Shown: positions 23,885-32,054 of the stretch, in pieces
Layout: every line of letters starts with the position of its first letter
How positions within the stretch are numbered: the stretch's first letter is position 1
Virus record (IMG/VR): IMGVR_UViG_3300042465_005234
Span: 1 to 40,295 of that record
Source of the DNA: a virus
Reading direction: 5' to 3' (one strand)
Length of the DNA stretch: 40,295 nt
Notes under the pieces: model-generated
What the model saw: the letters and a program-made list of their open reading frames with translations, nothing else
What the model was told of the DNA's origin: nothing
Databases searched by the model: none
Translations under genes and position numbers: made by a program

Positions 23885-23995
23885 ATGAATAGTAAAAAAG
23901 AAAAGAATGAAAACATTGCTAATGCAATAAAATCAATTTGCATTTTGTTACTGGTTTTAACTTTTACGTTTGGATTTTCATGTGACACCAAGTGA
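23885..23995 (+). CDS. Small membrane or secreted peptide, 36 aa
   Basis: Begins MNSKKEKNENIANAIKS, then a hydrophobic stretch (ICILLLVLTFTFGF) and ends SCDTK. The layout is a charged N-terminus plus one membrane segment; the Cys resembles a lipoprotein site but the lipobox is poor. An AGGG lies eight bases before the ATG. The stop overlaps the beginning of the sigma factor gene, so it may mainly couple translation. Confidence 0.5.
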   Translation: MNSKKEKNENIANAIKSICILLLVLTFTFGFSCDTK

Positions 23996-24824
23996 TTCTG
24001 AAATAAAAAGAATGATTAGGCAACTCAACAAGCATGACCGAAAACTAACTTCTGAAGAAGAGCAAGTTATTGGGCATGGTTTGAGTCGTCCTGCCTTGCG
24101 TGAGCAATGTAAAGACGTAATGGTTGTCCATAACATCGGATTGACTAAGAAGATTGCTAGTCAGTACGTGCATTTAGGTGCATCTGAAATCGAAGACTTG
24201 GCTTGCTATGGCATACAAGGATTGATGAGGGCGTTAGAAGATTGGGATATGTCTAGAGGGCTAAAGTTCTCAACGTATGCAACATGGTGGGTACGCCAAT
24301 CAGTGCGACGTGCATATGAACTCCACACTCGTCTTATTCGGTTACCGTCACACATAAGTGAAAACTATGGCAAGGTAAGACGCATTTATGACAAACATTG
24401 GGTAGAAACCGGCGAAGCAATGCCAATAGAGGAACTTGCTATTAAAGCAGGTATGCCTCTTGTAGTAGCACAAAATTGTTGGACTGCAATGCAAGTTAGG
24501 CTTGGTAGCCTAGATGCACCACTTGGCATTGATGAAGAAAGTGGAACCCGGTATGCATACTTACCAAGTGAAGATGACACACCAGAAATATCTGTTGTAA
24601 AGGATTCAACGAGTGAGTACATTTTAAAATTAATAAACTCGTTGCCTGATTCTCAAGCAATAGCAGTCGTTAGATTCTTAGGGTTAGACGGCAATGAGCC
24701 ATCTACTCATACACAGACAGGTGCATACTTTGGCGTATCTAGGCAACGAGCGCATCAATGGTTTACCCAAGGCATTGCAACACTGCGACTTACACTTGAA
24801 GAGGAGGAAGTCGTTGAGTCTTGA
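23970..24824 (+). CDS. Phage-encoded sigma70-family RNA polymerase sigma factor
   Basis: A 284-aa RpoD-like sigma factor. Region 2 covers residues 48-116, with the core-binding/melting block LACYGIQGLMRALEDWDMSRG and the -10 reading helix KFSTYATWWVRQSVRRA (99-115), followed by RLIRLPSHI and region 3 (125-190). Region 4 lies near 215-275 with a recognisable HTH (TGAYFGVSRQRAHQWF). It would redirect host RNA polymerase to phage promoters. The start is uncertain: TTG 23970 gives this length, GTG 23982 is also possible, and neither has a strong ribosome site. Its -35-reading region 4 is less conserved than region 2. It follows the repressor on the same strand. Confidence 0.85.
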   Translation: MDFHVTPSDSEIKRMIRQLNKHDRKLTSEEEQVIGHGLSRPALREQCKDVMVVHNIGLTKKIASQYVHLGASEIEDLACYGIQGLMRALEDWDMSRGLKFSTYATWWVRQSVRRAYELHTRLIRLPSHISENYGKVRRIYDKHWVETGEAMPIEELAIKAGMPLVVAQNCWTAMQVRLGSLDAPLGIDEESGTRYAYLPSEDDTPEISVVKDSTSEYILKLINSLPDSQAIAVVRFLGLDGNEPSTHTQTGAYFGVSRQRAHQWFTQGIATLRLTLEEEEVVES

Positions 24825-26035: not shown

Positions 26036-26064
26036 TTGCAAGTTATATTGCCACCCGATATAAC
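26036..26064 (+). promoter_or_regulatory. Promoter of the SSB-to-terminase operon with operator 3
   Basis: -35 TTGCAA (26036-26041), 17-base spacer, -10 TATAAC (26059-26064). The 23-bp operator at 26042-26064 has arms GTTATATTG and CGATATAAC separated by CCACC, the best palindrome of the three copies. The spacer and -10 are almost the same as in the leftward promoter at 23587-23559. Confidence 0.82.
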
Positions 26065-26080
26065 ACATATAGAGGTATTT

Positions 26081-26446
26081 ATGAACAAGGTTATTCTTAT
26101 TGGACGTTTGTGTGCTGACCCAGAGTTTAAGATGACTACATCTGGAACACCTGTTGCAATGATGCGTATTGCTGTTGACCGTCAAGGAGCGCAGGAAGGT
26201 GCTGTTAAAGCGGACTTCATTGACCTTGTTGCATGGAGGCAGACGGCAGAGTTTGCTCAACGTAACATGGCAAAAGGAAGGCTTATTGCAGTTACTGGCA
26301 CATTGAGGATTGAAGATTACACAGACAAAGAAGGCAATAAACGTAAGTCAAGTAAGGTTACAATTGATACGATTGAGCCATTGGAAAAACGTAATGATAA
26401 TGCTCCATCAGGTATGACTGATATCTCAGACCCATTTGAGGACTAA
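26081..26446 (+). CDS. ssb: Single-stranded DNA-binding protein
   Basis: A 121-aa OB-fold SSB: MNKVILIGRLCADPEFK is the classic opening, followed by GTPVAMMRIAVDRQ, DFIDLVAWRQTAEFAQRNM and KGRLIAVTGTLRIEDYTDKE. The C-terminus ends in an acidic DISDPFED tip, similar to the protein-interaction tip of bacterial SSBs. The start is ATG 26081 with AGAGG upstream; earlier in-frame sequence is promoter. It is the first gene of the operon that reaches to the large terminase. Confidence 0.93.
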   Translation: MNKVILIGRLCADPEFKMTTSGTPVAMMRIAVDRQGAQEGAVKADFIDLVAWRQTAEFAQRNMAKGRLIAVTGTLRIEDYTDKEGNKRKSSKVTIDTIEPLEKRNDNAPSGMTDISDPFED

Positions 26447-26689
26447 ATGAAGTACGGACAGCATTATAGGAATTCTAAGTTTGATGCGTTAGAGGTCATA
26501 CAGGAATGGCATCTAAACTTTACTCTTGGCAATGTATTGAAGTACATCCAGCGAAGTGTACATACCCAGAGAATGGATGATTTGCTTAAGGCGCTTTGGT
26601 ATTTAACTTACGAAGTGTCGGGTAGTAAAGAACAAGCAGACAAGGTAGTTGAGTCATTAGAAACAACTTGGGGTAAACCTATTGAGTAG
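26447..26689 (+). CDS. DUF3310-family protein, 80 aa
   Basis: A short protein common in phages near nucleotide metabolism genes. Family features are HYRNSKFDALEVIQEWHLNF, LGNVLKYIQR and DDLLKALWYLTYEV. The family was once annotated as a nucleotide kinase but its function is unproven. The ATG follows the SSB stop without a gap, and the end overlaps the next gene by 8 bases. Confidence 0.8.
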   Translation: MKYGQHYRNSKFDALEVIQEWHLNFTLGNVLKYIQRSVHTQRMDDLLKALWYLTYEVSGSKEQADKVVESLETTWGKPIE

Positions 26690-27905
26690 AGTCATAAACC
26701 AGTCAATAGAGGATGTAGACATTCGTCTATTAAAACATCATCCAAGAAACGCTAACCAAGGTGATGTAGAGCAAATTAAAGCGTCTCTAGCAGTAAATGG
26801 TTGGTATGGCTCCGTTGTTGTAAACAAAAAGACAAACCATATCCTTGCTGGGAACCACAGGGTTATGGCGGCTAAATCATTGGGGTGGGAAACAGTCCCA
26901 GTTACTTGGATTGACGTAGATAAAGAACAAGAACTTAGAATCCTACTTGCAGACAACCGCACTACTCGTATCGGTATTGATGACCAAACTAAGGTTGCTG
27001 ATATTCTTGCAGAACTTGCAAAAACAGACCTAGAACTTTCCGGTACTGGATACTCATCTGAGGATTTAGATTCGTTGATTCATTCATTGAGTGGACACGA
27101 GCAAGCGGCTGAAGACGAACGTGGTCTAAAGTCAGAACCGCTCTCGTCGCGCAAGTATGGAGTCGACCTTATTTTTTCATTGACTCCAACTGAACCTCTT
27201 ACATTTACTGCTGTTGCGTCTGGTTGGATGATTGGATGTATTTCTACCTGTTCAAGTCTTCATGACGAAGAGAAGATGAAAAACTGGACATGGAAATACA
27301 AGGTCAACTTTATTGACAACGAGTTTAAGTCCTACGACCATGCAAAACATCTAAATGCAGTTAGGTTAAATAAACCTAAATACTGTACGGTCATGGACGT
27401 AATGACTAAAGCACAATGCGATGGGTTAGGTATCAAGCACCATTCGCTATCGCAAATTTTAGAATGGGCTGAAGAACTTAATGAGTATGCAGAGAATGTT
27501 ATTGTCATTCCTAAGCATGACATTATAGATAAGATTCCTGAGAAGTTTATGTGTGGGTATTCAGTACCATCTTCTTATGGTGCAACACCATTGCCTAGCG
27601 AAGCATTTAAAGGGCGAAGGGTTCACCTACTTGGAGGTTCGTGGAAGTCTCAAATGCGATACTTAGACCTTCTCCCTGATGAAGTAGTATCTTTAGACAA
27701 CAACCACATCAACAACATTGCCCGATGGGGGCAAGCACAACTAAGAGACGGCAGTACAGTTAAACTATGGGATTTAGGTTTGTTGGCAGTTAATCCTAGA
27801 AGTATATGTTTAACTATTTCGTTTGGTGAGATTGGTCGTGCTATTCAAGGCATGAATCAAGAGCAGATAGAAGATGGTGAACCAGAGGAGGCAGAAGAAA
27901 GATGA
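26682..27905 (+). CDS. ParB-like domain fused to a DpdA-type DNA transglycosylase
   Basis: A 407-aa two-domain protein. Residues 10-130 are a ParB/sulfiredoxin-like domain (NGWYGSVVVNKKTNHILAGN followed by HRVMAAKSLGW, then LLADNRTTRIG). Residues about 155-395 resemble the short tRNA-guanine transglycosylase-like DpdA proteins of phages: YCTVMDVMT with Asp239, VIVIPKHD (273-280), FMCGYSVPSSYG (289-300), HLLGGSWKSQMRYL (315-328) and VVSLDNNHI with Asp339. In characterised phages DpdA swaps guanine in DNA for a 7-deazaguanine base. The directly following preQ1 genes support this. What the ParB part does (DNA grip, nicking, targeting) is unknown. TTG start; its stop overlaps queF by 4 bases. Confidence 0.75.
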   Translation: MSRVINQSIEDVDIRLLKHHPRNANQGDVEQIKASLAVNGWYGSVVVNKKTNHILAGNHRVMAAKSLGWETVPVTWIDVDKEQELRILLADNRTTRIGIDDQTKVADILAELAKTDLELSGTGYSSEDLDSLIHSLSGHEQAAEDERGLKSEPLSSRKYGVDLIFSLTPTEPLTFTAVASGWMIGCISTCSSLHDEEKMKNWTWKYKVNFIDNEFKSYDHAKHLNAVRLNKPKYCTVMDVMTKAQCDGLGIKHHSLSQILEWAEELNEYAENVIVIPKHDIIDKIPEKFMCGYSVPSSYGATPLPSEAFKGRRVHLLGGSWKSQMRYLDLLPDEVVSLDNNHINNIARWGQAQLRDGSTVKLWDLGLLAVNPRSICLTISFGEIGRAIQGMNQEQIEDGEPEEAEER

Positions 27906-28288
27906 GTGATGATATTACAATCCTTGGCAACAAATTTAGTGAGCCAATCGGACCCGACAAACTAGAGTTTTTTGTACCAGAACAAACACCTTCAATGGTT
28001 AGTTTTAAAACTGACCAGTTTACGTCTTTGTGTCCAGTGACAATGCAACCCGATTATTCGTATATTCAGATTGACTATTCTCCAAACGTTAAACTGGTTG
28101 AAAGTAAATCACTGAAACTGTATCTCTGGGGTTTTCGACAAAAAGGCATTACTTGTGAAGACCTTTCTACGACTATCGCGTCTGATTTGTTTGATGCGTT
28201 GACTCCTTTATCTATTACAGTCACGGTCAAGCAAGCCATGCGTGGAGGGCTAGAAACACTTGCGGTAACGGAGATTGAAAGTGAATAA
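27902..28288 (+). CDS. queF: QueF, preQ0 reductase
   Basis: A 128-aa short-type NADPH-dependent 7-cyano-7-deazaguanine reductase that converts preQ0 to preQ1. It shows the nucleophile Cys44 in TSLCPVTMQPD, the acid Asp51, the NADPH motif ESKSLKLYLWGFR (67-79) and Glu86. The full ESKS-LKLY motif argues for true reductase activity rather than the archaeal QueF-like amidinotransferase. One oddity: the residue before Glu86, a His in typical QueF (FHED), is Cys85 here (TCED). It lies between the transglycosylase and queC with 4-base and 8-base overlaps. Confidence 0.88.
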   Translation: MSDDITILGNKFSEPIGPDKLEFFVPEQTPSMVSFKTDQFTSLCPVTMQPDYSYIQIDYSPNVKLVESKSLKLYLWGFRQKGITCEDLSTTIASDLFDALTPLSITVTVKQAMRGGLETLAVTEIESE

Positions 28289-28955
28289 GAATCACGTCGT
28301 GGTTTGTCTAAGTGGAGGACTTGACTCTACTGTTGCTGTTGCATATCTAAAAGACCACGGTTTTGATGTCACGACTGTCGGTATTGATTATGGGCAACGG
28401 CACAGGCGTGAGTTAGAACGAGCCGCTTCTATTGCAAGTTTCTATAACGTTCCATTTGTTCGTATTGACCTTAGTAGTTTTGCTACTACGGCATTTGCTG
28501 GAAATGCTCTAACTGATATGGGCATTGATGTCCCCGAAGGTCATTACGAAGACCCGACAATGAAACTCACAGTGGTTCCTAATAGAAACATGACATTGCT
28601 TAGCATTGCAACGGCGGTCGCTATTAGTAAAAAGGCTACTCACGTTGCTTATGGCGCACATAAAGGAGACCACGCAGTTTATCCAGATTGCCGTCAAGAG
28701 TTTTATGAGGCAATGAGCAAGTCAATGCAACTATGTAACTACACTCCAGTTATTTTGACTGCTCCTTTTATTGATAAGACAAAGACAGATATTGTCAAAA
28801 TCGGACGGAAGTTAAACGCTCCTATGCATCTCACTTACTCTTGCTATAACGGAGGGGTGCATCATTGTGGCGTGTGTGGCACGTGTGTGGAACGGCGTGA
28901 GGCTTTTGAGCAAGCAAAAGTCTTAGACCCGACTGTTTACTCCACACTTTTTTGA
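28281..28955 (+). CDS. queC: QueC, 7-cyano-7-deazaguanine (preQ0) synthase
   Basis: A 224-aa ATP-dependent ligase turning CDG into preQ0 with ammonia. The PP-loop LSGGLDSTVAVAYL is at the N-terminus, followed by VVPNRNMTLLSIATAVA and the zinc site CYNGGVHHCGVCGTC near the C-terminus. GTG 28281 is preferred because GGAG lies seven bases upstream; a TTG two codons earlier is the alternative. The gene overlaps queF by 8 bases. Confidence 0.94.
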   Translation: MNKNHVVVCLSGGLDSTVAVAYLKDHGFDVTTVGIDYGQRHRRELERAASIASFYNVPFVRIDLSSFATTAFAGNALTDMGIDVPEGHYEDPTMKLTVVPNRNMTLLSIATAVAISKKATHVAYGAHKGDHAVYPDCRQEFYEAMSKSMQLCNYTPVILTAPFIDKTKTDIVKIGRKLNAPMHLTYSCYNGGVHHCGVCGTCVERREAFEQAKVLDPTVYSTLF

Positions 28956-28961
28956 GGCACT

Positions 28962-29315
28962 ATGTATACGATAAGTAAAGAGTTTCACTTTTCAGCATCT
29001 CATCAACTAACCCATCTCCCAATGGGACATCAGTGTGCTAGATTGCATGGACATAATTACAAAGTTGTTCTAACGCTAGAGGCAGAAGAATTAGACGATA
29101 ACTCTTTTGTGAAAGACTACGGACAAATGACTGCATTTAAAGATGCAGTTGATGCGCTTGACCATAGGCATTTAAATGATTTGTTTGAATGCCACACGAC
29201 TGCTGAAAACTTGGCAAGTCATTTCTACGGAGTAGCGTGGAGTCAATACGGAGATATTGTAAAGTCCGTCGCTGTGTCAGAAACCGATAAGACATGGGCT
29301 ACATTTACACCATGA
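28962..29315 (+). CDS. queD: QueD, 6-carboxytetrahydropterin synthase
   Basis: A 117-aa PTPS-family enzyme making 6-carboxytetrahydropterin from dihydroneopterin triphosphate. Zinc ligands His14 (SASHQL), His29 and His31 (ARLHGHNY) and catalytic Cys25 (GHQCARL) are present, as are DYGQMTAFK and LDHRHLND. It follows queC by 6 bases and its TGA overlaps the ATG of queE. Confidence 0.93.
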   Translation: MYTISKEFHFSASHQLTHLPMGHQCARLHGHNYKVVLTLEAEELDDNSFVKDYGQMTAFKDAVDALDHRHLNDLFECHTTAENLASHFYGVAWSQYGDIVKSVAVSETDKTWATFTP

Positions 29316-29995
29316 CGTATGTAGTCAACGAGTTATTTGAAACGTGGCAAGGAGAAGGCGTACACATGGGTGAACACGCTTTCTTTATTCGCCTAGTAGG
29401 ATGCGACCAATCTTGTCACTTTTGTGATTCTGCACAGACTTGGCACAAGGATTATCTAGACAAGTCAGTCAACAAAAAGATGACACCATCTGAGATTGCT
29501 GATGAAATAGAACTCTTTCACGGTCAGATTATTGTCATTACCGGCGGAGAACCAGCGCTATGGAATCTTGAACCATTGTGTGAAGAACTCAATGAAAGAT
29601 TTCCGGGTAAGGCTCTTCACATTGAAACTGCTGGTCATCATGAAATTAAAGGTGGTTGGCGCTTTGACTGGATAACACTTAGCCCTAAACCATTTGCGTC
29701 TAAACCGTTGGTTTCAATGCTACACAAAGCCAATGAGTTAAAGATTATTGTAGAAGGCGAAGAGTCAATAGAGTATCTCAATTCAATAGAACGAGTCATT
29801 GGACAAGTAGTTTGGTTGCATCCAGAGTGGAGTAAGCGTAACTCTCCTGAAGTGTTGTCTATCATCAACCGCGAAGTAAAGATAAATAAGCACAAGCCAC
29901 GGGCTGGGTATCAACTACATAAGTTGTACAACGTTGATAAGTTAGATACCCGTTCTGACAAACGGTTTATTCCATTAGGAGGAGTCAATGGTTGA
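29312..29995 (+). CDS. queE: QueE, 7-carboxy-7-deazaguanine synthase (radical SAM)
   Basis: A 227-aa radical SAM enzyme that contracts the pterin ring to CDG. The iron-sulfur motif is Cys31-x3-Cys35-x2-Cys38 (GCDQSCHFCDS), with NELFETWQGEGVHMG before it, as is usual in QueE, and the SAM-binding VITGGEPALW. The start ATG 29312 overlaps the queD stop (ATGA). It overlaps folE by 8 bases. Confidence 0.94.
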   Translation: MTYVVNELFETWQGEGVHMGEHAFFIRLVGCDQSCHFCDSAQTWHKDYLDKSVNKKMTPSEIADEIELFHGQIIVITGGEPALWNLEPLCEELNERFPGKALHIETAGHHEIKGGWRFDWITLSPKPFASKPLVSMLHKANELKIIVEGEESIEYLNSIERVIGQVVWLHPEWSKRNSPEVLSIINREVKINKHKPRAGYQLHKLYNVDKLDTRSDKRFIPLGGVNG

Positions 29996-30557
29996 AGATG
30001 CGATAAAGGAGTTACTTGCTTACATTGGCGAGAACCCTGAACGGGATGGTCTTAAAGAGACCCCAAAGCGAGTAGTCAAAGCGTTAGTAGAGATGACTGT
30101 AGGTTATTCACATGACCCGGCAAAAATCTTGTCTAGGCAGTTTACACAGGAAGAGCACAAATATACTGGCATTGTTCTTTTGCGGGATATCGAGTTTGTA
30201 TCACTGTGTGAACATCATATGCTTCCATTTACTGGGAGAGCAGACATTGCTTACGTCCCATCAGGCGATGGCAATATTGTTGGTATTTCAAAACTGGCTA
30301 GATTGCTTGATTGTTACTCAAAGAGATTGCAAGTACAGGAGCGTCTTACTATGCAAATTCACGATGCAATAGAAGAAAATCTCAATCCTGCTGGGACTGC
30401 GGTAATAATCAAAGCAACGCATAGTTGCATGAGTTGCCGAGGTGTTCAGAAATCAAAGCCAGAAATGGTAACGAGTCGATTGTCTGGGTGTTTCTATTAC
30501 GATGCAACTTGTAGACAAGAACTGATGGAGTTACTGCACTATGGCAAGACCAACTAA
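29988..30557 (+). CDS. folE: FolE, GTP cyclohydrolase I
   Basis: A 189-aa type I cyclohydrolase converting GTP to dihydroneopterin triphosphate, the first step of the 7-deazaguanine route. Zinc ligands are Cys74 and His77 (SLCEHHMLPFTG) and Cys147 (HSCMSCRGVQ). GISKLARLLDCYSKRLQVQE is the other signature. GGAGGAG precedes ATG 29988. The last 17 bases overlap the small terminase gene. Confidence 0.94.
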   Translation: MVEDAIKELLAYIGENPERDGLKETPKRVVKALVEMTVGYSHDPAKILSRQFTQEEHKYTGIVLLRDIEFVSLCEHHMLPFTGRADIAYVPSGDGNIVGISKLARLLDCYSKRLQVQERLTMQIHDAIEENLNPAGTAVIIKATHSCMSCRGVQKSKPEMVTSRLSGCFYYDATCRQELMELLHYGKTN

Positions 30558-30888
30558 ATATAACGAAGCAACGCACCGCAAGATTTGCAATGCTTTATCT
30601 GCTGGGAACACACGTAAAGATTCCGCCGAATATGCAGGTATCAGTGAGGCAACATTTGGGCGTTGGATAAAAGAGTATTCTGAGTTTGAAGAAGATGTCC
30701 AAAAGGCTGAGGCTGATGCAGTCGTGAGAAACGTTGCTATTATTCAGCAAGCCGCCTCTAAGACATGGCAAGCCGCCGCATGGTGGCTAGAGCGACGCCG
30801 TAAGAATGAATGGTCTGCTAAAACTGAAATCGGTAACTCTGACGGTGAACCAATGAAGATAGTAGTTGAGTACGTAAAGAACCAGTGA
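30541..30888 (+). CDS. Terminase small subunit
   Basis: A 115-aa DNA-recognition subunit of the packaging motor. The N-terminal HTH (THRKICNALSAGNTRKDSAE, then YAGISEATFGRWIKEY) is followed by helices for ring formation (VRNVAIIQQAASKTWQAAAW) and WLERRRKNEWS, a common motif in small terminases. It overlaps folE by 17 bases and the large subunit by 4 bases, so packaging genes are translated from the DNA modification transcript. Confidence 0.88.
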   Translation: MARPTKYNEATHRKICNALSAGNTRKDSAEYAGISEATFGRWIKEYSEFEEDVQKAEADAVVRNVAIIQQAASKTWQAAAWWLERRRKNEWSAKTEIGNSDGEPMKIVVEYVKNQ

Positions 30889-32054
30889 GCATAAAAATAC
30901 AGATTCCCGAACCGCATATAAACCAGATGACCATTCTCAATGAAGCAAAGCGTTTCAATGTGGTCGCTTGTGGAAGGCGGTTTGGGAAGACAACTTTAGG
31001 GGGCAACTTACTGGCGGAGACAGTCATCTCTCAAAGCAGGTCAGCCGCATGGTTTGCGCCAACTTTTCGTTTGCTTGAAGAAGCATACCAAGACCATCGC
31101 CGTATCTTTGCCCCTATTATCAAGCGAGCAGTATCTATGCCGGCACCCCGCATAGAACTTATAACTGGGTGTGCTATTGACTATTGGACGCTAGACGACC
31201 CGGCTACTGTTGCTCGTGGTCGAAAGTATCAACGCGTTATAGTTGATGAAGCGGCTATGGCACGTTACCTTGAAACTGCATGGACAGAGGCACTGCGCCC
31301 TACTCTAACTGACTATAAAGGAGACGCTTTTTTTCTATCAACGCCTAAAGGGCGCAACTATTTTTCTACATTGTTTGACAGGGCTAAGACAGAAGAAGAC
31401 TGGATGTCTTGGCAAATGCCTACGGTCAGTAATCCATACATAGACCCATCGGAAGTTGAGTCGGCTAAACAATCATTGCCAAGCATCGCGTTTAGGCAAG
31501 AATACTTAGCAGAATTTGTAGACCTTGCTGGTGCGCGAGTAAAGCGAGAATGGTTGCAAAAGGGATTACCAAGTGAACCATTAGATGTGTATCTTGGAGT
31601 TGACCTTGCTATATCAACAAGACAAGATGCTGACTACTCTGCTATTGTTGCTGTATCCCGTGATTCACGAGGTAATTTGTACGTTCTGGATGTAGCAAGG
31701 ATACGAGCGGATTTCGCCGCTGTACTGCGGTTTATTGAGGAGATGGCACGTAAGTGGAACCCTAAGACCATTGCCATTGAGAACGTGCAATACCAAGCGG
31801 CTGTAATTCAAGAGTTGCTAAGACGAACCAAACTCCCAATCCGTGGAATAAGACCCGATAAAGACAAACTTACTCGCTTTATGCCGATAGAGGCAAGATA
31901 TGAATATGGGCAAGTTTTTCATAGCCCCTCGCTACCTGATTTCTGGGAAGAAGAACTTCTGTCTTTTCCCGTAGGGCACCATGATGACTGCGTAGATGCA
32001 TTTGCTTATGCATGGGCAGTATGTGGTCAACCTAAAGTTTTCATGGCGGTATAA
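30885..32054 (+). CDS. Terminase large subunit (ATPase and nuclease)
   Basis: A 389-aa packaging motor protein. Walker A is GRRFGKTT (30-37), Walker B is RVIVDEAAM with Asp121/Glu122, and the coupling motif is FLSTPKG (150-156). The RNase H-like nuclease has Asp240 (YLGVDLA), Glu299 (IAIENVQY) and the HHDDCVDAF cluster (365-373). GTG start at 30885 overlaps the small subunit. The portal lies 10 kb away on the circle, separated by accessory genes, which is unusual. A strong terminator follows at 32097. Confidence 0.93.
   Translation: MSIKIQIPEPHINQMTILNEAKRFNVVACGRRFGKTTLGGNLLAETVISQSRSAAWFAPTFRLLEEAYQDHRRIFAPIIKRAVSMPAPRIELITGCAIDYWTLDDPATVARGRKYQRVIVDEAAMARYLETAWTEALRPTLTDYKGDAFFLSTPKGRNYFSTLFDRAKTEEDWMSWQMPTVSNPYIDPSEVESAKQSLPSIAFRQEYLAEFVDLAGARVKREWLQKGLPSEPLDVYLGVDLAISTRQDADYSAIVAVSRDSRGNLYVLDVARIRADFAAVLRFIEEMARKWNPKTIAIENVQYQAAVIQELLRRTKLPIRGIRPDKDKLTRFMPIEARYEYGQVFHSPSLPDFWEEELLSFPVGHHDDCVDAFAYAWAVCGQPKVFMAV

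Follow-up and report, generated by a model that had tools for sequence, protein, structure and literature searches.

The subject of this analysis is a viral stretch of 40,295 nucleotides (IMG/VR virus record IMGVR_UViG_3300042465_005234, positions 1 to 40,295; hereafter the window), and within it a plus-strand operon at 26682-30557 that encodes a fusion of a ParB-like module with a domain of the Pfam family DUF6610, followed by QueF, QueC, QueD, QueE and FolE and, next to these, the terminase genes. We consider it likely that this operon makes free preQ1, that the DUF6610 domain inserts it into the phage DNA, that the ParB module is the adaptor loading the DUF6610 barrel, and that the resulting dPreQ1 protects the genome. 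The evidence was obtained by computation and consists of the genes, a fold match, conserved residues, the linkage to the precursor pathway and the sharing of the ParB module with other phages. The genes, fold and probable product agree with an earlier sequence-only reading of the window; the deeper result is an exchange locus, where sister phages carry the same ParB module beside several other kinds of DNA-modification module. The six open reading frames (ORFs) of the operon and the two parts of the fusion are as follows.

26682..27905, plus strand: ParB-DUF6610 fusion, whole gene (TTG start, 407 residues; full-length relatives in three Mycobacterium phages and in IMG/VR contigs)
26682..27101, plus strand: ParB-like N-terminal module, residues 1-140 (PHROG 723, Pfam ParB_N, Foldseek, identity to sister-phage ParB)
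27153..27869, plus strand: DUF6610 domain, residues 158-396, predicted 7-deazaguanine DNA transglycosylase barrel (PF20314, AlphaFold2, Foldseek)
27902..28288, plus strand: QueF, preQ0 to preQ1 reductase (TIGR03139, comparison with B. subtilis QueF, alignment)
28275..28955, plus strand: QueC, 7-cyano-7-deazaguanine synthase (PF06508, E 1.9e-61; TIGR00364 above cut-off)
28962..29315, plus strand: QueD, 6-carboxytetrahydropterin synthase (PF01242, PTPS/QueD, E 5.1e-27; TIGR03367)
29294..29995, plus strand: QueE, radical-SAM 7-carboxy-7-deazaguanine synthase (PHROG 2076, E 6.4e-32; TIGR04322)
29988..30557, plus strand: FolE, GTP cyclohydrolase I (PF01227, E 5e-67; TIGR00063 above cut-off)

The six ORFs are nearly gapless: neighbours overlap by 4-22 bases, except that QueC and QueD are 6 bases apart. 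Other phages (L018, L020) have this gene order too.

Predicted fold and conserved residues of the DUF6610 domain

Residues 177-352 of the fusion match PF20314 with an E value of 1.2e-37 (129.9 bits against a curated cut-off of 27), and the profile is matched by all 18 aligned members; no paper naming DUF6610 was found in the literature searched. An AlphaFold2 model of the whole fusion, built on the alignment of 18 sequences, has ParB N domains as well as tRNA-guanine transglycosylase (TGT) among its PDB matches, and a model of the DUF6610 domain alone (pLDDT 92, pTM 0.90) has eight core strands. When the domain model was compared with the PDB by Foldseek, the top 50 among the matches listed were all TGTs (E from 4.9e-6). 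Among the best matches in a viral library was the DpdA of Arthrobacter phage Mufasa8 (E 1.5e-6), and protein R9TGF0 of Vibrio phage nt-1 was also matched (E 1.5e-4); DpdA2 was described from nt-1 (PMC6884629), and R9TGF0 may be that protein. In these models, the DUF6610 domain has the TGT-superfamily fold, an eight-stranded beta/alpha barrel, in agreement with the TGT-type barrel that the sequence-only reading had placed at residues 155-395; the outcome that would have spoken against that reading, a predicted structure with no such barrel there, did not arise. By sequence the domain belongs to DUF6610 and not to the ordinary DpdA family (DpdA1), with an hhalign probability of 0.2% against an alignment of phage DpdA.

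The residues invariant in the DUF6610 alignment are D212, D239, H315-x-LGG and S337-x-D339, and their order (D212-D239-H315-S337-D339) is that of the invariant D-D-H-S-D in phage DpdA, with a spacing of 76 residues both between D239 and H315 and between D71 and H147 of DpdA. The invariant D212 (strand 3) and D339 (strand 8) would correspond to D102 and D280 of TGT, a match drawn from topology and not from a superposition. The classical TGT zinc site (C-x-C-x2-C...H) is absent, as two DUF6610 alignments contain no invariant cysteine. We infer the substrate, the reaction and its direction, and DNA as the target: the barrel would exchange guanine in the phage DNA for preQ1, with D339 as the nucleophile and a covalent DNA intermediate.

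Precursor pathway, DUF6610 relatives and the probable inserted base

The presence of FolE, QueD, QueE, QueC and QueF together with a transglycosylase-like gene in one operon, as first read from the sequence, was confirmed for all six ORFs, and all operon enzymes match their families far above chance in the Pfam, PHROG and NCBIfam profiles. QueC has the SGGLDS loop and a C-x7-CGVCGTC site. QueD matches its Pfam family, scores slightly below the cut-off of TIGR03367 (83.4 against 89.25 bits) and keeps its motifs by eye, as does QueE with its C-x3-C-x2-C motif, which matches its PHROG family and stays under the equivalog cut-off of TIGR04322 (E 7.2e-27). QueF (profile E 2.2e-20) reaches 100.8 bits with the NCBIfam preQ1 synthase model TIGR03139 (cut-off 86.9), is nearer to the free-base QueF of B. 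subtilis (E 1e-20) than to QueF-like (E 8e-5), and retains in the alignment the catalytic Cys44, Asp51, the ESKSLK motif and Glu86. By its equivalog score and its active-site residues, apart from one substitution weighed below, it is predicted to be a nitrile reductase of the free-base type and not a QueF-like enzyme. On paper the route from GTP to preQ1 is complete, and the five enzymes would together supply the free base.

DUF6610 has full-length relatives in three Mycobacterium phages, relatives without ParB in haloviruses, and further ones in 19 IMG/VR records and two bacterial metagenome-assembled genomes. Scans with a single sequence, either the fusion or its ParB part, gave no relatives, whereas alignment-based scans did. 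In a set of 23 records (the window, the 19 IMG/VR records and the three mycobacteriophages), 19 carry a gene for QueC or for the queuosine-precursor transporter Vut_1, in several cases adjoining DUF6610 or within a few genes of it, and the remaining four are two fragments below 10 kb and two larger records. QueF was detected in 15 of 26 records searched, compared with 25 of 50,697 phage records (tblastn with the window QueF), which is a rough contrast only, as the methods differ. The protein gp69 of halovirus HVTV-1 is also a DUF6610 protein (E 2.7e-56; homology by tblastn, E 1e-13), and its gene adjoins FolE, with QueE, QueD, QueC and QueF nearby. In HVTV-1 DNA about 30% of G is present as dPreQ1 and dPreQ0 was undetected, and in 2019 a viral enzyme for the insertion could not yet be named (PMC6884629). 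From the fold, the linkage to precursor genes and the case of HVTV-1, which has both a DUF6610 gene and dPreQ1 DNA, preQ1-type DNA is the best prediction for the phage of the window, with part of the genomic G as dPreQ1 that would shield it from host restriction. Cui et al. 2023 reportedly defined DpdA4 as a subfamily confined to archaeal viruses. We presume that DpdA4 and DUF6610 are the same, gp69 being the obvious candidate for DpdA4, and the transglycosylase domain of the window is then probably DpdA4.

Whether QueF acts before or after insertion has been left open (PMC6884629), and the DpdA of phage 9g and of bacteria inserts preQ0. DUF6610 could likewise insert preQ0 and QueF then reduce or convert the base on DNA, as archaeal QueF-like does on tRNA, with dPreQ1 or dG+ as the final product. 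We regard this as a real but rather doubtful possibility: preQ1 as the inserted base is favoured, though not settled, because no dPreQ0 was found above the detection limit in HVTV-1 (PMC6884629) and because the phage QueF is of the free-base type. Bacterial enzymes of the TGT fold act on tRNA, and for phages that have preQ genes without DpdA a role in tRNA modification has been proposed (PMC6884629), so the operon might instead raise queuosine in host tRNA, with DUF6610 acting on tRNA or as an accessory. That seems very improbable, because the domain is fused to ParB, which is associated with DNA and is otherwise paired with DNA modifiers in sister phages, and because HVTV-1 has modified DNA and DUF6610 and no DpdA was found in it.

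In the mycobacteriophages Funsized, Rinkes and Knocker (L003, L004, L005) a single operon within the first 5 kb encodes a ParB-DUF6610 fusion and, as a gene of its own, DpdA. These phages hold two candidate inserting enzymes, and their DNA may contain two 7-deazaguanines. Their arrangement would agree with a reading in which DUF6610 acts in targeting or in a second step, and the insertion is done by a DpdA of the host or one that escaped detection. We find this improbable, since among the tested DUF6610 records a Funsized-like DpdA is present only in these three, no classical DpdA being detected in the others, the window included, with the mycobacteriophage DpdA as the query, and since DUF6610 itself has the predicted TGT fold and aspartates of the catalytic type.

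Variations of the genomic setting were also observed. In two records (L011 7980-9331, L016 6944-8798) the DUF6610 gene is directly followed by a Vut_1 (YhhQ-type) transporter gene, with no QueC or QueF, as a salvage version of the system. Distant DUF6610 homologues in the haloviruses HF2 (L010 2947-3861) and HRTV-26 (L006 9965-10879) have no preQ genes nearby and may use host precursors; both lack a Vut_1 gene, and HRTV-26 also lacks QueC.

The ParB module and the exchange locus beside the terminase genes

The N-terminal ParB-like domain of the sequence-only reading is borne out by PHROG 723 (ParB, E 8.8e-42), by Pfam ParB_N (E 4.9e-5; 23.7 bits, slightly under the cut-off of 26.3) and by Foldseek matches to ParB/Noc N domains (best E 4.7e-7); phmmer against the PDB gave weak ParB matches only. 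Its P motif GNHR (57-60) is intact, so that the module combines the P-motif arginine R60 with a modelled ParB/Srx (ParB-CTPase) fold. The canonical partition features of ParB, a helix-turn-helix and a C-terminal dimerisation domain, have no Pfam match in the fusion, and DUF6610 follows ParB instead. The module would serve as an NTP (nucleoside triphosphate)-binding adaptor for loading, docking or clamping that places the barrel on the phage DNA. The locus in which it lies is bounded by the following genes.

26036..26689, plus strand: SSB-like and DUF3310 genes, left flank (DUF3310 PF11753, E 2.2e-10; SSB-like read from sequence)
30541..32054, plus strand: small and large terminase subunits, fixed right flank (profile matches; large subunit, TerL, 70-74% identical in sister phages)

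With the large terminase as the query, 263 contigs matched, and the best 80 loci (70-74% identity) were kept. The DUF3310 gene is found in 37 of these 80, and in 35 of the 80 a ParB module lies between DUF3310 and the terminase genes. Its partners in those 35 are N6/N4-methyltransferase fusions (19), a C5-methyltransferase gene (8), Mom (3), DpdA with QueD, QueE and FolE (3), a TET-associated glycosyltransferase (1) and an ABC-GNAT protein (1); DUF6610 occurs in none of the best 80. When the ParB alignment by itself was used for a second scan, 80 contigs were kept, of which some also belong to the terminase set, and in all 80 a DNA-modification-type gene or fusion partner follows ParB: N6/N4-methyltransferase (48), C5-methyltransferase (13), Mom (8), DpdA (3), ABC-GNAT (4, two with a formyltransferase), glycosyltransferase (2) and TET plus glycosyltransferase (2). 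ABC-GNAT is not a proven DNA modifier; the partners in the other 76 belong to recognised modification families. Among the 36 terminase relatives with the whole interval in view, 16 have both ParB and a modification enzyme, 20 have neither and none is mixed, and the intervals without ParB hold short ORFs only and mostly a gene of about 209 codons read as the thymidylate synthase ThyX. We therefore rejected the idea of ParB as a bystander gene, as these contigs always had both or neither.

Residues 1-138 of the fusion are 72-75% identical to the ParB of seven sister phages (eight representatives aligned). In the ParB tree the window groups with sister phages that carry other heads (UFBoot 88, SH-aLRT 97) and not with the other DUF6610 fusions; therefore its ParB comes from its own lineage and the barrel from elsewhere. 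The DUF6610 label requires four changes on this tree, at least two of which are forced by well-supported branches. A single ancient origin of the ParB-DUF6610 fusion was rejected, since the placement and the label changes show that heads and ParBs reassort.

The same module with differing enzymes at one locus, together with the joint presence and absence, makes ParB look independent of the chemistry. We give about even chances to the proposal that ParB is a general adaptor, kept beside the terminase and paired, as a fusion or as a neighbouring gene, with any modifying enzyme that the phage takes up. Many phage ParB genes carry a nuclease annotation, and DndB-like ParB proteins repress transcription (PMC12704722), so the ParB half could also stand outside the modification reaction, acting as a nuclease or regulating transcription of the operon. 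We judge this unlikely in view of the strict co-presence of ParB with modification enzymes at one locus, often as a fusion, and of the precedent of DpdB, a bacterial ParB-like ATPase reported to serve dPreQ0 insertion (PMC12839542). Loading or docking by ParB, one of the two roles first suggested from the sequence, fits these data better than the other, nicking, as the sister module stands with other DNA-modifying enzymes.

Several observations weigh against parts of the proposed reading, in which DUF6610 inserts preQ1 and ParB loads the barrel. Against TGT, the DUF6610 model reaches moderate TM-scores (about 0.55-0.65 by query), and profile-profile comparison gave no sequence link of DUF6610 to E. 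coli TGT or phage DpdA; because of this we make no claim of detectable sequence homology, and the link is one of predicted structure, motif order and context. As Funsized, Rinkes and Knocker have both enzymes, DUF6610 might have a task other than insertion in these phages. In the QueF of the window, Cys85 replaces the active-site His96 of B. subtilis QueF, a swap seen in the alignment in several other phage QueFs, so that the earlier statement of intact active-site motifs in every enzyme stands with this exception. The P-motif arginine is absent in about half of the other ParB-DUF6610 fusions, and NTP binding would thus not be general among them. Besides, the 80 ParB contigs are closely related and not independent.

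Further cassettes were seen at the exchange locus. Three contigs (L053 2012-5641, L075 and L078, which are the contigs of L127, L136 and L139) encode ParB, DpdA, a class I methyltransferase-like protein of 193 residues, QueD, QueE and FolE; with no QueC in view, these phages are predicted to use 7-carboxy-7-deazaguanine or a derivative instead of preQ0. The 62-kb contig IMGVR_UViG_3300042429_000522 (L053, L098) has two TerLs of the lineage, only one of them accompanied by the ParB-DpdA cassette, and is either two phages joined or a chimeric assembly. ParB is followed in four contigs (L109 2736-4378, L151, L129, L134) by an ABC-ATPase-GNAT fusion (PHROG 11143, unknown function), two of which add a formyltransferase gene, possibly an undescribed DNA modification, and in two others (L117 4998-7156, L118) by a TET/JBP dioxygenase and a TET-associated glycosyltransferase, likely a base-hypermodification cassette at the same locus. 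Elsewhere in the window, an RNA polymerase sigma-factor gene lies at 23970-24824 (PHROG 351, E 6e-44), and Rfam and tRNA scans of the window gave no match.

Comparison with known systems

Both 7-deazaguanine DNA modification and ParB-methyltransferase fusions are already known. In the literature searched, we found no description of a bacteriophage ParB-DUF6610 transglycosylase fusion or of a single ParB module shared at one locus by modification modules of several kinds. With the present results, DUF6610, a Pfam family without assigned function, gains a predicted one, and a predicted transglycosylase, probably of the DpdA4 type, is now placed in bacteriophages and fused to ParB. The role of ParB domains beside phage DNA-modifying enzymes has been called unknown (PMC12783734), and the pairing of a closely similar ParB with several modification modules at one locus makes this question directly testable. 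If the adaptor proposal is true, phages swap their DNA armour (methyltransferases, Mom, TET plus glycosyltransferase, ABC-GNAT, DpdA, DUF6610) and keep the loader.

Bacterial Dpd systems resemble the operon in joining a 7-deazaguanine transglycosylase (DpdA) with a ParB-like protein (the ATPase DpdB), but no restriction genes were seen near the window operon and the PADLOC Dpd models matched no part of it. HVTV-1 gp69 shares the Pfam family, the invariant residues and the operon partners FolE, QueE, QueD, QueC and QueF; it belongs, however, to an archaeal virus, has no ParB part and is about 30% identical in the core, whereas the carriers described here are bacteriophages, most of them with the ParB fusion. 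Gene 1 of Funsized, Rinkes and Knocker, annotated as 'ParB-like nuclease domain protein', is a full-length ParB-DUF6610 fusion (33-34% identical) directly followed by QueF and then by preQ0 genes, but it has Thr for Arg in the P motif and stands in phages that also have a separate DpdA. In Mufasa8 and Bipper (Arthrobacter and Mycobacterium phages) ParB and a transglycosylase likewise head a preQ operon, with the barrel order D-D-H-S-D, although their DpdA is of another barrel family without detectable sequence similarity and is unfused to ParB (in Bipper a small ORF lies between). The phage ParB-N6/N4 methyltransferase fusions (PHROG 498; PMC12704722) have the same type of N-terminal ParB module joined to a base modifier; their partner is a methyltransferase, with no precursor pathway, and in the sister phages they carry the same ParB at the same locus.

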